From the NCBI GenBank assembly GCA_035635555.1, contig DASQAT010000035.1, positions 1-64,000 of the forward strand: 64,000 nucleotides of DNA, read 5' to 3'. The notes under the pieces were generated by a model. It was not told the DNA's origin, did no database searches, and worked only from the letters and a program-made list of their open reading frames with translations. Source of the DNA: Candidatus Dormiibacterota bacterium. Lineage in GTDB: Bacteria; Acidobacteriota; Polarisedimenticolia; Gp22-AA2. The translations under genes and the position numbers were made by a program. Positions 6,579 through 21,132 of the stretch are shown here, one piece after another. Positions within the stretch are counted from its first letter, which is position 1. Every line of letters begins with the position of its first letter.

Positions 6579-8309
6579 TCAGGCGGACGGGAGACTCACC
6601 CGGAAGGTGGTGCCTGAGCCCTGGGTGCTTTCGACCTCGATCGTCCCGCCCATCGCCTGGGTCAGGTGCTTGGCGATCGCCAGGCCGAGCCCCGTCCCCC
6701 CCTCCCGGCGGTCGCGGGAGCGGCCGACTCGGTAGAACCGCTCGAAGATGCGCGGCAGGTCACCGGGAGGGATCCCGACCCCGTTGTCACTCACCGCCAG
6801 GACGACGCGTCCGTCCGCCATCTTCGCCGACAACGTGACCCGCCCCCCCTCGGGCGTGAACTTCACGGCGTTGTCGAGCAGGTTGATCAGGATCTGGGCG
6901 AGCCGATCCCGATCGGCGAGGATGTCCGGGAGATCGGCGGGCAGGTCGATGGCAAGGGTCTGACCGCGGGCCTCGGCCGCGGGACGAACCAGGCCCTCGG
7001 CCTGGGCGACGACGTCGCGCGCCCGGACGACGGCGGGCTTCAGGCGCGCCTCCCCCTGCTCCACCGCGGCCAGATCGAGGAGGTCCTCGATCAGGGCGCG
7101 CAGTCGCTCGGCGTGCCTGTGGATGACACGCACGAACTCGGCCGCCGTCTCGGGATCGCGCAGGCCGCCGTCGCGCAGAGTCTCAGCGTACCCCTTGATC
7201 GCCGTCAGCGGGGTGCGCAGCTCGTGCGACACGTTGGCCACGAACTCCTGCCGCACCCTCTCCAGTCTCTTCAGCTCGGTGACGTCGTGGAACACGGCCA
7301 CCGCTCCGACCGTAGCACCGCGCTCGCGGATGGCGGCGAGGCTGGCCTGGATCACTTTCTGCTGAGCGCCGCCGAGTGCTATCTCCCGCGTGAGCGGCTC
7401 GTCCGCCTCGAGCGCCGACTCGATCGCGTCCTGGAGCGCCGGCACGCGCGCGGTCTCGAGCGGCCGGCGGCCCTCCACCGGGAGCTGCGCGTCGAAGATC
7501 CTCCGGAACGCATCGTTGGCGACCAGGATGCGTCCGGTCGGGTCGGTCAGGACCACCCCCTCGACCATCCCCTCGAGAACGGTGCGGAGCTGGCTTCTCT
7601 CGCGCTCCACGAGGATCAGGCGCTCCTCGAGCTGGTCCGCCATGCGGTTGAGCGACCTCGCCAGGACCGAGGTCTCGTCGTCACCGCCCGGCTCGGCCCG
7701 CACGTCCATCCGGCCGGCGGCGAATTGCGACGCGACGCGCGCGATCGCCTCCAGGCGGCGCGCCGGGCCGCGCGCCACCGCCCACCCGATGAGCCCCGCG
7801 ACCAAAAGCGACAGGACGGCCGCGAGGAGGATCGGCACGCGCACGGCCTCCTGGGCCCGGGTCACGTCGGTGAGCGGGAGGGCCAGGCGGATCACCCCGC
7901 GGGCAGGATCGTCCGGGTCGATGCGCGAGGCCACGTACAGCATGTTCTCGGCGACCGTCCGGCTGTAGCGCATGGATCGGCCCGTCCCGTCACGCACCGC
8001 CTCCATCACCTCGGGCCGGCTCGCGTGGTTCTCGACCTCGCGAAGCGCCGCGCCGTCCAGATCGGTGTCGCCCAGCACCGCCCCGTCGGAGGAAATGATC
8101 GTCACCCTCACACCGAGGTCTCGTCCAAGACGATCGGCCAGCCGGTCGGCCGTCGAGGGCAGGTCCGGCTCGGCGCGAGCCAGGTCGCGGGCGAGCCGGA
8201 CCTCGTCTCCCAGGCGGGCGGCGATCTGCTCGGTCACGCGCCGTGCCACGGCGCGATCGAGGACCAGCGCGGCGAGAAACGACGAGAGACCGGCCACGAG
8301 GACGAACAA
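6579..8309 (-). CDS. phoR: Phosphate-regulon-type sensor histidine kinase PhoR
   Basis: Membrane kinase partner of PhoB. In order: an N-terminal membrane segment, a periplasmic sensor of about 130 residues, a second membrane segment near residue 160, HAMP-like region to about 230, a PAS domain (about 240-345), the dimerisation H-box FVANVSHELRTPLTAIKGYA with His362, and a HATPase domain with NLLDNAVKFTPEGG, DNGVGIP and GGTGLGLAIAKHL. The 8309 start is TTG. The frame is open nine codons further to a CTG at 8336 preceded by GGAAGG, and the added LRIQHRLTLLF reads like a natural kinase N-terminus, so the true start may be there. It lies 15-42 bp after phoB. Confidence 0.93.
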   Translation of the reverse strand: MFVLVAGLSSFLAALVLDRAVARRVTEQIAARLGDEVRLARDLARAEPDLPSTADRLADRLGRDLGVRVTIISSDGAVLGDTDLDGAALREVENHASRPEVMEAVRDGTGRSMRYSRTVAENMLYVASRIDPDDPARGVIRLALPLTDVTRAQEAVRVPILLAAVLSLLVAGLIGWAVARGPARRLEAIARVASQFAAGRMDVRAEPGGDDETSVLARSLNRMADQLEERLILVERERSQLRTVLEGMVEGVVLTDPTGRILVANDAFRRIFDAQLPVEGRRPLETARVPALQDAIESALEADEPLTREIALGGAQQKVIQASLAAIRERGATVGAVAVFHDVTELKRLERVRQEFVANVSHELRTPLTAIKGYAETLRDGGLRDPETAAEFVRVIHRHAERLRALIEDLLDLAAVEQGEARLKPAVVRARDVVAQAEGLVRPAAEARGQTLAIDLPADLPDILADRDRLAQILINLLDNAVKFTPEGGRVTLSAKMADGRVVLAVSDNGVGIPPGDLPRIFERFYRVGRSRDRREGGTGLGLAIAKHLTQAMGGTIEVESTQGSGTTFRVSLPSA

Positions 8310-8351: not shown

Positions 8352-9050
8352 TCAGTCCGCGGCCGCGAAACCGGCCGGCCGGAATCGGTACCCGACGCCG
8401 CGCACCGTCTGGATCCAGTCTCCGACCGGTCCCAGCTTCGCCCGCAGACGCTTCATGTGCGTGTCCACGGTGCGTGTCTCGATCTCTCCGCCGTAGCCCC
8501 ACACCTCCGAGAGGAGCTGGTCCCGGCTGAACGCGCGGCCGGGCCGCCGGGCCAGACGGTGCAGGAGCTTGAACTCGGTGGCGGTCAGGACGATCTCCTT
8601 TCCCTTCAGCCGGACGAGGTGCGCGCCGACGTCGATGACCAGCGGCTCGTGGACGATGCGCTCGTCCGGCCCCTCCTTCTCGTCGCGTCTCAGGATCGCC
8701 TGCACGCGCAGAACCAGCTCGCGCGGCGAGAACGGCTTCACCACGTAATCGTCCGCGCCCAGCTCGAAGCCGACGACCCGGTCGACCTCCTCGCCCCGCG
8801 CGGTCAGCATCACGATCGGGATGCCGCGGGTCTTCTCATCCTGCTTCAGCATGCGGGCCACCTCGGCTCCGGGCAGGACCGGCAGCATCAGGTCGAGCAC
8901 GACGAGGTCGGGCCGCTCGCGGCGCGCCATCTCCACAGCCTGGCGACCGTCGGTGGCCGACACCACCCGGTACCCGGCCTGCGCCAGGTTGTAGCGCACC
9001 AGCTCGACGATGTCGCGCTCGTCGTCCACCACCAGGATGGTCTGCGGCAT
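8352..9050 (-). CDS. phoB: Phosphate regulon response regulator PhoB (OmpR/PhoB family)
   Basis: 232 residues, close to E. coli PhoB (229). The receiver domain has the acidic pair DDERD, phosphoacceptor Asp53 (VVLDLMLP), Thr83 and Lys105 (VKPFSPREL). The C-terminal winged-helix DNA-binding domain (about 130-225) includes LTATEFKLL, RTVDTHMKRLRAKL and TVRGVGYRF. The start MPQTILVVDDE at 9050 is the first Met that gives a normal receiver N-terminus; the open frame continues upstream but is not conserved-looking. It precedes phoR in one operon. A Pho-box-like repeat about 120 bp upstream suggests autoregulation. Known family role: activation of Pho-regulon promoters such as the one at 4634-4686. 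Confidence 0.94.
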   Translation of the reverse strand: MPQTILVVDDERDIVELVRYNLAQAGYRVVSATDGRQAVEMARRERPDLVVLDLMLPVLPGAEVARMLKQDEKTRGIPIVMLTARGEEVDRVVGFELGADDYVVKPFSPRELVLRVQAILRRDEKEGPDERIVHEPLVIDVGAHLVRLKGKEIVLTATEFKLLHRLARRPGRAFSRDQLLSEVWGYGGEIETRTVDTHMKRLRAKLGPVGDWIQTVRGVGYRFRPAGFAAAD

Positions 9051-9171
9051 GAGCGCTCTGTCTCCCCGGGACCCCGGCCGGACGGGCCGATTATAGCCCC
9101 CGGGCCCGCCGGCCCGGAGATTGCCCCGGCCAAGCGTGTGTCGGGAGGGTGAGAGCGGGATGGCGGTGGAG

Positions 9172-9193
9172 TGACGAATGGGTGACAACCACC
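9172..9193 (-). promoter_or_regulatory. Second Pho-box-like direct repeat between phoB and the redoxin gene
   Basis: On the minus strand TTGTCACCCAT and TCGTCACTCC lie back to back with an exact 11-bp period (TGAC at 9172 and 9183 on the plus strand). They share the (T/C)GTCAC core of the repeats before the porin gene. The orientation fits control of phoBR, but no convincing -10 follows on that strand. On the other strand a perfect TATAAT lies 10 bp away, so the site may influence the divergent redoxin gene as well. Confidence 0.58.
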
Positions 9194-9208
9194 TGGGCTG
9201 CCTATAAT
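9182..9208 (+). promoter_or_regulatory. Promoter of the redoxin/selenoprotein gene
   Basis: A consensus -10 box TATAAT at 9203-9208 stands out in this very GC-rich DNA. The -35-like GTGACA (9182-9187) is 15 bp upstream and is part of the Pho-box-like repeat, so this may be an activator-dependent promoter. The predicted transcript start near 9215 lies upstream of the AAGGAGG and CTG start of the redoxin gene and excludes the earlier in-frame GTG codons at 9149 and 9182. Confidence 0.55.
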
Positions 9209-9256
9209 AATGATAGCGGACCCGGGCGGGCCCGGGTTCGAAGGAGGACCACTCCC

Positions 9257-9730
9257 CTGGGCCGTCCCCTCGCAGTCGGGTCACACGCGCCGGATTTCGA
9301 CCTGCCGGGGATCCCCTCCCCCGTCTCGATCCGGACGATGGGCGCCGTGCCGCGCGTCATCGAGTTCCACCGCGGCACCTGGTGACCCGCCTGCCGCCAC
9401 AGGCTCTCGCAGTTGCGAGACGGATGGGCGAGGGTGGAGGAGCGTGGCGCCCGCCTGGTGGTCGTCCTCTGTCAGGATCCGGGGGCCGCGCGGGCCTATT
9501 TCGACGCGCATCCCGTCCCGTACCCGGTGGCGATCGACCAGGAGAGAAGGGTCGCGAAAGCCTACGGTGTCTACCGTCTCCTCGGTTTCGACTCGGTTCA
9601 CATCGCGCGTCCCGCCACCTTCATCGTCGACGGCGGCGGGATCGTCCGAGATCGGTTCGTGGCGCAGGTGCAGTGGCAGAAGATGCCGATCGATGCGATC
9701 CTGCGAGCCCTGACGGTCAAGGGTTCCTAA
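9257..9730 (+). CDS. Redoxin (AhpC/TSA-type) selenoprotein with in-frame TGA at the active site
   Basis: Thioredoxin-fold redoxin of about 157 residues if TGA at 9383-9385 is read as selenocysteine. Before it comes VGSHAPDFDLPG and VIEFHRGTW; after it PACRHRLSQLRDGW, then AIDQERRVAKAYGVY and PATFIVDGGGIVRD, all in one frame and typical of peroxiredoxin-like proteins. The family motif is RG-x-W-C-P-x-C, so the TGA replaces the first cysteine and gives a U-P-A-C motif. A SECIS-like hairpin follows at the right distance. The start is probably CTG 9257, with AAGGAGG 9 nt upstream; it is the first start after the TATAAT box. Alternatives are a single-base sequencing error or a pseudogene. It converges on the dockerin gene, with a 4-bp overlap of stops. 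Confidence 0.78.
9389..9420 (+). promoter_or_regulatory. Candidate bacterial SECIS element
   Basis: Directly after the TGA two stems abut: GCCTG/CAGGC (9389-9404, 6-nt loop) and TCTCGC/GCGAGA (9405-9420, loop AGTT). The G of the second loop is 27 nt after the TGA. Known bacterial SECIS hairpins lie within the coding region just downstream of UGA, with a G (often GU) in a small apical loop about 16-37 nt away. Position and loop agree; the sequence is not diagnostic by itself. Confidence 0.5.
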
Positions 9731-12696
9731 TGGCAGCCCGGCGTCCGGCGCCCGAAGTACTGGACGAAGACGGCGAGATCGTTCCCGTCGACGACATCGT
9801 CTCCAGTCAGGTCCCACTGGGGACTGAAGCCCGGATCGGCGGACGTCGTGGCCCAGGCACGGGCGAGCACGTTGAGGTCGATCCCGTCCACCGTGCAATT
9901 GCCGTTGAGGTCCGGCGTGCGCACCACTTTCAACGCATTGCGGAGCGTGCCGGACAGCTGGTCCGGGTTGGTGACCGTGATGTCGCGAGGTCCGAGGGCA
10001 GCCGTCGTATCGACCGTGAGCGTCGCCTTCAGGTGCATCGCGTCGATGAGGACCGTCGGGCCGGATGTGATCCCGGATCCGAGGTTCAGGACGGCGCCCT
10101 GCTGAAAGCCTGTCCCGGTCACCTGGATATCCTGCACCCCCGGTTCAACGATGATGGTCGAATTGGTCGTCGTCTCCATGACCGAGGTCACGGTGGGTAT
10201 GGAGGAGACCGTGGTGCTGACAGAGGCGCCCACGGTCGGCGCCGTCTCGACGGGGTCGATGCTGTAAGAGGCGTTCGTGATGACGGTCCCGCTCGCCAGC
10301 GGACTGGCGACACTGACCACCAGCTGCACGGAGCCTGAGCCGCCGGCCGCCAGAGCCCCGATCGACCAGGTTACGACACCGCCCGACAGCGCTCCGCCCC
10401 CTGTCGCGGACACGAACGTCGTATTGACCGGGACCGTGTCGGACAGCACCACTCCGGTCGCGCCCGAGTTCCCCGTGTTTGCGTAGGCGAGCGTGTAGGT
10501 GATCGTTCCACCCGCCGCTACCGGGTCCGGGGCGTCGGTCGCCGACACCGTCAGGACCGGCGCCGAGGTCACGGTCGTCGTGATGGCACTGCCATTGACC
10601 GGCGCGGTCTCCGTGGAGTCGATGCTGTAGTTGCCGTCTGTGATGACCGTCCCGTTCGCCAGCGGGCTGTTGACGCGGACCACGAGCTGGACGGAGCCCG
10701 AGCCGCCAGCCGCCAGCGCCCCGATCGACCAGGTGACCACGCTGCCCGACAGCGTCCCACCCCCGGTCGCCGACACGAACGTCGTATTCACCGGGACCGT
10801 GTCCGACAGCACCACTCCGGTCGCGCCCGAGTTCCCCGTGTTCGCATAGGCGAGCGTGTAGGTGATCGTGCCGCCCGCCGCCACCGGGTCCGGAGCGTCG
10901 GTCGCAGACACCGTCAGGACCGGCGCCGAGGTCACGGTCGTGGTGATGGCATTGCCGGTGACAGGCGAAGTCTCGGTGGAGTCGATGTTGAGTGTGCCGT
11001 TCGTGATGACGGTCCCGTTCGCCAGAGGACTGTTGACCCTGACCGTCAGCGTCAAGGATCCGGAGCCGCCCGCTGCCAGCGCGCCGATCGACCAGGTGAC
11101 GACACCGGCCGACAACGTCCCGCCGCCGGTCGCCGACACGAACGTCGTATTGACCGGAACCGTGTCCGAGAGCATAACCGCGGTCGCGCCGGAGTTCCCC
11201 GTGTTCGAATAAACGAGCGTGTAGGTGATCGTGCCGCCCGCCGCCACCGGGTCCGGCGCGTCGGTCGCAGACACCGTCAGGACCGGCGCCGAAGTCACTG
11301 TGGTGGTGATGGCGCTCCCACTGACCGGCGCGGTCTCCGTGGAGTCGATGTTGTAGGTGCCGTCGGTGACGACGGTCCCGTTCGCCAGAGGACTGTTGAC
11401 GCGGACCACGAGCTGCACCGAGCCGGAGCCGCCCGCCGCCAGCGCGCCGATCGACCAGGTCACGACTCCGGACGACAGCGTCCCGCCTCCCGTCGCCGAC
11501 ACGAACGTCGTATTGACCGGAACCGTGTCCGACAGCACGACCGCGGTCGCGCCCGAGTTCCCCGTGTTCGAGTAAGCGAGCGTGTAGGTGATCGTGCCGC
11601 CCGCCGCCACCGGGTCCGGCGCGTCGCTCGCCGACACCGCCAGGACCGGCGCCGAGGTCACGGTGGTCGTGTCGTCGACACCGTTGACCGCGGTGGTCTG
11701 GGCGCTCGCGACGCTGTACGTCTGGTTGTGGATCACGGTGCCGTTCGCAAGCGGGCTGGCGACGCGGACCGCGAGCTGGACGGTGCCTGAAGCGCCGGCG
11801 GCGAGCGAGGCGATCGACCAGGTGACGACGGAGCCGGAGAGGGTGCCGCTGCCGGCGGAGACCAACGTGGTGTTGGCCGGCAGGGTGTCGGTTACGCGGA
11901 TCGACGTCGCGTCGGCATTGCCGGTGTTCGCGTAGGACAGCGTGTACGTCAGGGTCGCTCCCGCGGGGACCGGGTCGGGCGTATCGGTGGATACGATGGT
12001 CAGGACCGGTGTTGACATCACGGTCGTAGTGATGCCCGGTCCGGCGACAGAACCGGTCTCGTTGCTCACGATCGCATACGCGGCATGTGTGATCAGCGTC
12101 CCGTTCGGCAGCGGGCTGGCGACGCGGACGACGAGCTGCACGGAGCCGGAGGCGCCGGCCGCCAGCGCACCGATCGTCCAGGTGACGACGGAACCCGACA
12201 GGTTGCCGCCGGCGGTGGCGCTGACGAACGCCGTATTGGCTGGAACGGTGTCGCTGATCAGCACGCCGGTGGCCGTGACATTTCCCGAATTCGAATACGA
12301 CAGCGTGTAGGTCAGGGTCGCTCCGGCGGCCACCGGGTCCGGCGCATCCGTCGCCGTGACGGTCGGGCTCGGCGCGAGCACGGTCGGTGTCGACGAGATC
12401 TCGTTCGAGGGCCCGCTCACGTTGCCGGCCAGGTCGTACGCGACGACGGTGAAGTAGTAGGTGGTGCTGGCCGTCAGGCCGCTCACGGCGTACGACGTCT
12501 GATTGCCGACATCGATGGTTGCGGTGTAGTTGCCCGAGGTCGTTCCGTACAGAATCCGGTAGCCGGAGAGATCCGACTCCGTGTTCGCGTCCCAGGCGAG
12601 CTGGACGACCGTCGATGCGTATGCCGTGCCCGTGGCCGCCCCCAGACACACGACGAGCCAGGACACGATTAGCCGGAGACTCCAGCGTCCCGACAC
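9727..12696 (-). CDS. Secreted DUF11-repeat protein with fibronectin III and C-terminal dockerin
   Basis: 989 residues, exported by an N-terminal signal peptide (ending near GTAYAS). Order of parts: a fibronectin type III domain (about 30-105, WDANTESDLSGYRILYG), six DUF11 repeats of about 121 residues (each near DAPDPVAAG-x-x-TYTL and ending in TTTV), an IPT/TIG-like domain (about 830-920), and a dockerin-like pair of calcium loops (about 925-989). The second loop, DLTGDDVVDGNDLAVFVQYF, matches the dockerin pattern closely. Dockerins bind cohesin domains, and two cohesin-like lipoproteins are encoded at 55.4-56.9 kb. The GTG start at 12696 follows a G-rich ribosome site. DUF11 repeats are common in surface adhesins; the ligand is unknown. 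Confidence 0.9.
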   Translation of the reverse strand: MSGRWSLRLIVSWLVVCLGAATGTAYASTVVQLAWDANTESDLSGYRILYGTTSGNYTATIDVGNQTSYAVSGLTASTTYYFTVVAYDLAGNVSGPSNEISSTPTVLAPSPTVTATDAPDPVAAGATLTYTLSYSNSGNVTATGVLISDTVPANTAFVSATAGGNLSGSVVTWTIGALAAGASGSVQLVVRVASPLPNGTLITHAAYAIVSNETGSVAGPGITTTVMSTPVLTIVSTDTPDPVPAGATLTYTLSYANTGNADATSIRVTDTLPANTTLVSAGSGTLSGSVVTWSIASLAAGASGTVQLAVRVASPLANGTVIHNQTYSVASAQTTAVNGVDDTTTVTSAPVLAVSASDAPDPVAAGGTITYTLAYSNTGNSGATAVVLSDTVPVNTTFVSATGGGTLSSGVVTWSIGALAAGGSGSVQLVVRVNSPLANGTVVTDGTYNIDSTETAPVSGSAITTTVTSAPVLTVSATDAPDPVAAGGTITYTLVYSNTGNSGATAVMLSDTVPVNTTFVSATGGGTLSAGVVTWSIGALAAGGSGSLTLTVRVNSPLANGTVITNGTLNIDSTETSPVTGNAITTTVTSAPVLTVSATDAPDPVAAGGTITYTLAYANTGNSGATGVVLSDTVPVNTTFVSATGGGTLSGSVVTWSIGALAAGGSGSVQLVVRVNSPLANGTVITDGNYSIDSTETAPVNGSAITTTVTSAPVLTVSATDAPDPVAAGGTITYTLAYANTGNSGATGVVLSDTVPVNTTFVSATGGGALSGGVVTWSIGALAAGGSGSVQLVVSVASPLASGTVITNASYSIDPVETAPTVGASVSTTVSSIPTVTSVMETTTNSTIIVEPGVQDIQVTGTGFQQGAVLNLGSGITSGPTVLIDAMHLKATLTVDTTAALGPRDITVTNPDQLSGTLRNALKVVRTPDLNGNCTVDGIDLNVLARAWATTSADPGFSPQWDLTGDDVVDGNDLAVFVQYFGRRTPGCH
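10128..12330 (-). repeat. Six tandem DUF11 repeats with a 363-bp period
   Basis: The block GCGTGTAGGT on the plus strand recurs at 10491, 10854, 11217 and 11580, exactly 363 bp (121 codons) apart, and neighbouring units are nearly identical in DNA. The two upstream units are more diverged. The same period is used in the giant gene at 32.5-48.8 kb. Confidence 0.88.
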
Positions 12697-20625: not shown

Positions 20626-21132
20626 TCAGTCGGGCGGGTGGCGATCGAGGATCCGCTCGAGACCTGCCCGATCGAGCGAGCCCATCTGGACATGCTCGGC
20701 CACCCGGCCGTCCGGCCCGATCACGAGCGTGATCGGGAGGGACAGGACACCGTACGCGGCGGCCACCTTCCCGCGCGCGTCCAGCAGAATCGGGAAGGAA
20801 ATGCCCGACGCCTTGACGTAGGTCGCGACCTTCGAGCGCTTCTCCCCCAGATTGACCCCCAGGATCACGAGCGTGCGCGGGTGGGCGCGCGCCGCCTCCT
20901 CCAGGATGGTCATTTCCTCGCGGCAGGTCGGGCACCAGGTCGCCCAGAAGTGCAGGAGGACGAGGCGGTCCTTGAATGACGATAGCGTCACCGGCCGGCC
21001 GTCGAGATCGGGAAGCGTGAACGGATGCGCCGGCTCCCCCGGGTCCGGGGGGCCGGAGGCGGGCGCGGGGCCTGCGAGGAGGAGCCCCGCGCCCAGGATC
21101 AGAAAGAAGAGGACGACAGCGCGCCGAGACAA
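20626..21132 (-). CDS. TlpA/ResA-type thiol-disulfide oxidoreductase
   Basis: 168 residues, exported or membrane-anchored by its N-terminal hydrophobic stretch (VVLFFLILGAGLLLAGPA). The redoxin domain has the active site WATWCPTC (Cys67, Cys70), the cis-proline region LPITLVIGPDG, and LPDLDGRPVTLSSFKD. It would reduce or isomerise disulfides in the periplasm. The start is TTG at 21132, 2 bp after the stop of the upstream barrel gene and without a strong ribosome site, so translation is probably coupled. Third gene of an operon with a Cys-rich secreted protein and an outer-membrane protein, so those cysteines may be its substrates (inference). Unlike the redoxin at 9.3 kb, it keeps both cysteines. 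Confidence 0.9.
   Translation of the reverse strand: MSRRAVVLFFLILGAGLLLAGPAPASGPPDPGEPAHPFTLPDLDGRPVTLSSFKDRLVLLHFWATWCPTCREEMTILEEAARAHPRTLVILGVNLGEKRSKVATYVKASGISFPILLDARGKVAAAYGVLSLPITLVIGPDGRVAEHVQMGSLDRAGLERILDRHPPD

Follow-up and report, generated by a model that had tools for sequence, protein, structure and literature searches.

A redoxin reading frame interrupted by a single TGA may be a gene broken by a stop codon, or an intact gene in which that codon specifies selenocysteine (Sec), and we asked which of the two holds for the frame at 9257-9730 (+) of the window (the whole 64,000-nucleotide stretch of DNA analysed). With the TGA (9383-9385) read as Sec, the frame contained no further stop or frameshift and was closed by a TAA at 9728-9730, giving the product LGRPLAVGSHAPDFDL...RVIEFHRGTWUPACRHRLSQLRDG...HIARPATFIVD... 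The original prediction of one redoxin frame running through FHRGTW-U-PAC was thus borne out, and the Pfam families AhpC-TSA (PF00578; 5.8e-22, 78.4 bits against a cut-off of 26) and Redoxin (1.9e-15) each matched across both halves of the read-through product. An ordinary ORF caller, which takes TGA as a stop, split the frame into 9149-9385 and 9413-9730, just as had been anticipated for standard gene callers. On the sequence evidence described below, we consider it very probable that 9257-9730 encodes a functional selenoprotein of ~157 residues with a redoxin fold and a UxxC motif, its UGA being decoded as Sec; the gene, seemingly broken by a stop, is almost certainly intact. The features of the locus are collected in Table 1.

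Table 1. Positions of the redoxin gene, its signals and its neighbours in the window.
Feature	Position	Strand	Basis or remark
Histidine kinase, upstream of the redoxin	6579-8309	-	
Response regulator (PF00072 + PF00486), upstream of the redoxin	8352-9050	-	
Candidate sigma-70-like promoter GTGACA-18-AATAAT	9182-9211	+	consensus match only, 10/12
Shine-Dalgarno AGGAGG	9242-9247	+	sequence; 9 nt 5' of CTG 9257
Probable CTG start codon	9257-9259	+	homologue ATG alignment; Shine-Dalgarno spacing
Probable Sec-containing redoxin (AhpC/TSA fold), 157 aa	9257-9730	+	PF00578, AlphaFold2 model, homologues
UGA codon, probably read as selenocysteine (Sec43 of UPAC)	9383-9385	+	conserved TGA; Sec apparatus of the genome
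Cys46, second residue of the UxxC motif	9392-9394	+	invariant in 13-row subfamily alignment
SECIS-like hairpin, stem UCUCGC/GCGAGA (9405-9410/9415-9420), apical loop AGUU (9411-9414)	9405-9420	+	fold, pair counts, recoding test, bacterial SECIS rules
DUF11-repeat protein with fn3 domain, downstream, convergent	9727-12696	-	stop codon overlaps redoxin end by a few bases

The caller's output could be taken at face value, i.e., translation would truly end at the TGA, and the frame beyond it would be a separate protein beginning at TTG 9413. In favour of this stands the ORF 9413-9730 itself, as called mechanically; however, the fold requires both halves, since the Sec site lies between strand 33-38 and helix 44-62 in an AlphaFold2 model built from the 13-row subfamily alignment (pLDDT 92.1), and the WUPxC motif that spans the TGA is invariant. 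We regard two separate proteins as very unlikely.

We examined the conservation of the TGA at three levels, in 60 relatives, in 41 genomes belonging to the class and in 396 belonging to the phylum, the phylum search scoring only the best candidates per genome. Fourteen homologues from seven bacterial families of the phylum formed a single clade in the tree (support 97/95). All 14 members carried an in-frame TGA at the same codon, with coding sequence on both sides, which settles in favour of TGA the question of whether Cys or TGA occupies this column. The residues on either side of it are also conserved (T41, W42, Sec43, P44 and C46 are invariant in the 13-row alignment), and the clade bears the signature F-x-RGTWUPxC ... 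I-A-R/H-P. Its sister groups include the WUPYC type, with TGA, and the WCPFC and TPTC/TPGC types, with Cys; no Cys form of the clade itself was found among the best candidates scored per genome in the phylum sample. A plasmid collection contained homologues below 60% identity only (best 31%) and no orthologues, and a peptide-pattern scan of the genome contigs returned just two distant relatives (25-29% identical). A codon-usage screen of the window for further TGA genes gave no convincing case and likewise missed the known TGA of the redoxin.

These results bear directly on two further explanations of the TGA. A pseudogene with a nonsense mutation would account for the lone in-frame stop, given that Cys is found in the better known members of the family, yet it would have to have acquired the identical TGA in every member and all seven families while remaining free of other lesions, in a genome whose Sec apparatus is complete (see below). 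Likewise, a single-base error of sequencing or assembly could be suspected where one assembly is the only copy of the species examined, but the TGA stands at the aligned codon in independent assemblies from other genera and families. Because the TGA occupies this exact column in all 14 homologues and no Cys form was found in the phylum sample, we rejected both, decay of the gene being exceedingly improbable and an error in the assembly no less so.

Decoding of UGA as Sec calls on a dedicated apparatus, and the prediction of a selenoprotein would have failed had the genome lacked the Sel genes and tRNA-Sec altogether. In the source genome (4.28 Mb, 99% complete) we found tRNA-Sec (75.9 bits, anticodon TCA), SelB (a 657 aa frame), SelA (451 bits) and SelD (366 bits), that is, the full set expected of a bacterial host of selenoproteins. 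SelD has a TGA of its own at its GGUAAK active site (C46:119634-120566, L042), and SelB was found in 52 of the 60 relatives searched. Together, this apparatus and the conservation of the TGA support the call of a probable selenoprotein. The same genome also encodes a second WUPxC redoxin with a TGA (FYRGYWUPLC; C39:52856-53335, L085), to which a protein of a congener (L028/L057) is closely related, and a Bcp-type peroxiredoxin with a TGA at the peroxidatic position (TPGU; C9:38441-38830, L092). A Cys paralogue, a TlpA-like redoxin with the motif FWATWCPTC, lies in the window at 20647-21039 on the - strand (L086).

Bacterial SECIS elements are described as having a loop of 3-9 nt with a G within the first two positions and a stem of 4-16 bp, at 16-37 nt from the UGA (PMC13188914). 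The hairpin downstream of the TGA, which had been predicted to lie at SECIS distance, has a loop of AGUU 25 nt after the UGA and a stem of 6 bp, and conforms to this description. Its fold energy is unremarkable when taken alone (11 of 200 shuffles fold equally well), and, of 150 recodings assessed under the SECIS rules, 35 gave a fold as good as that of the window hairpin. Fold energy, being weak (z -1.84), was dropped as the sole evidence. A loop of AGU or GGU recurs 25-26 nt 3' of the UGA in 11 of the 14 subfamily members. In the four sequences of the window's closest group, 24 of 24 pair cells are kept (100%), one pair varying between U-A, U-G and G-C; in a second group of seven, in which the register is shifted by half a base pair and the loop is one base longer, 97.6% of pairs are kept and one changes from U-A to G-C. 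When the partner was slid as a control, pairing fell to 21-67% in the first register and 29-48% in the second. Compensatory changes are few, amounting to one pair per register.

A synonymous recoding test found the stem unusual in 7 of 14 members (fractions 0.0016-0.051); for the window sequence itself the fraction was 0.20, i.e., 20% of recodings reach an equal stem length. Seven members have Leu at the loop, and each of them encodes it with TTG, a rare codon that makes up 15 of the 283 Leu codons in five genes of the window; the loop is thereby kept. Three distant members (L066-L068) are without this hairpin at this position, each having another whose loop and distance conform to the rules. 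Searched with Rfam at gathering thresholds, the window returned nothing. Overall, the hairpin is made convincing by its position, loop and conservation rather than by its fold energy; both its existence and its distance from the UGA hold, and only as a fold in its own right is it weak.

As for the active site, the TGA had been assigned to either the peroxidatic or the first CXXC cysteine, and the second of these proved correct. In PDB sequence alignments with the peroxiredoxins 2cx3 and 2ywn, it is Cys46 that falls on the peroxidatic Cys, with Sec43 on a Ser or Thr three residues before it; the Arg in 'KRAVFIV' and in 'KRAVFVI' is aligned with Pro119, a residue that also stands at the thioredoxin cis-Pro position. 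Sec43 as the peroxidatic position was ruled out by the alignment with Bcp-type peroxiredoxins and by the TPGU peroxiredoxin of the same genome. From these alignments and the contrast with TPGU, we infer the UxxC and cis-Pro arrangement typical of thiol:disulfide oxidoreductases, set on a peroxiredoxin-type scaffold.

The protein combines an AhpC-TSA domain with a UxxC motif (Sec43-P-A-Cys46), the features of a Prx-like thiol:disulfide oxidoreductase, and departs from the classical peroxiredoxin pattern (PxxxTxxC and an active-site Arg) at two points, Sec replacing the Thr and Pro119 the Arg. These replacements make a thiol:disulfide oxidoreductase more likely than a classical peroxidase, and we moderately favour disulfide reduction as the role. 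Alternatively, the enzyme could be mainly a peroxidase, i.e., a selenoperoxiredoxin in which either Sec43 or Cys46 attacks hydroperoxides and the other resolves, and which would be a selenoprotein all the same. AhpC-TSA is indeed its best Pfam family, Cys46 aligns as a peroxidatic Cys would, and Bcp and 1-Cys peroxiredoxins score like DsbE/ResA-type oxidoreductases among the best matches to solved structures, the predicted fold being one that cannot separate the two activities. Nevertheless, the Thr of the TxxC motif and the active-site Arg are both replaced, and the other Sec peroxiredoxin of the genome (TPGU) has its Sec at the peroxidatic position instead; a mainly peroxidatic enzyme thus seems to us rather unlikely.

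Prx-like thiol:disulfide oxidoreductases, defined as PF00578 with UxxC/UxxU, are a listed kind of selenoprotein (PMC13188914 Table 1; PMC1794560 Table 1). Judged by domain and motif, the redoxin belongs to this already recognised kind, with which it shares the AhpC-TSA domain, Sec as the first residue of UxxC and a bacterial SECIS-type hairpin directly downstream, whereas the window clade has a signature of its own and is without a Cys form in the phylum sample. The peroxiredoxin-like family cd02970, listed with UxxS (PMC13188914), and the WCPFC-type proteins resemble it in fold and in the motif F-x-RG-x-W-[CU]-P-x-C; the window clade, however, has UxxC rather than UxxS and occupies a separate branch of the tree, with WUPYC and WCPFC proteins as its sisters. 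Classical Bcp/AhpE peroxiredoxins, TPGU included, share the fold and the Cys46 position but not the Sec three residues before the peroxidatic site, and they retain the Thr and Arg that the redoxin lacks. ResA/DsbE (TlpA-like) proteins are similar in the positions of CxxC and cis-Pro and in profile and fold matches, yet the redoxin remains below their curated cut-offs (ResA NF002854, 41.8 against 170 bits) and has no signal or anchor segment, no export signal being obvious in it. A SelL-related redox protein profile (NF040769) matched weakly over residues 34-135 (40.6 bits against a curated cut-off of 120). Because no NCBIfam model reached its cut-off for the window redoxin, the clade may be without a name there, and perhaps is an unnamed Sec-only subfamily. 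Tentatively, and at somewhat less than even confidence, we read the 14 members as a separate, obligately Sec-using redoxin subfamily that has no Cys form, has been missed because callers cut at UGA, and has a hybrid active site in which a scaffold of the peroxiredoxin type carries UxxC together with the thioredoxin proline, with a CTG start in addition in the window species.

Upstream of the gene, the consensus -10, Shine-Dalgarno sequence and CTG codon of the original prediction are all present. An exact TATAAT, a -10-like site, lies at 9203-9208 (+), and a consensus scan for promoters found one site in this region (Table 1), where shuffled sequences gave 0.0 on average. CTG 9257 is the only in-frame start candidate at Shine-Dalgarno spacing, and in the alignment its counterpart in the closest homologue is an ATG (LGRPLAVG here, MSRPLEVG there); the nearest common in-frame start 5' of it, GTG 9149, is itself upstream of the -10-like site. 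Translation thus most probably begins at CTG 9257, a start that we grade as probable only, since CTG starts are rare in bacteria. As its neighbours on both sides lie on the - strand, the redoxin gene is most likely transcribed alone.

Taken together, genomics and conservation support a course of events in which the ribosome would reach the UGA, SelB, guided by the hairpin, would bring Sec-tRNA(Sec), and Sec would be inserted. The motif and fold further suggest that Sec43 acts as the first, nucleophilic residue of UxxC with Cys46 as its partner, the enzyme most likely alternating between two states, a selenol/thiol pair and a Sec-Cys selenenylsulfide, as it reduces disulfides or related oxidised substrates inside the cell. 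The picture of how selenoproteins work is unchanged by this redoxin. What it offers is a gene that standard annotation loses or cuts in two, and one more probable Sec enzyme beside Sec-SelD, the Sec peroxiredoxin and the second WUPxC redoxin of the same genome; its clade is a natural set in which to ask why Sec is retained by a redoxin that has no Cys form to fall back on.
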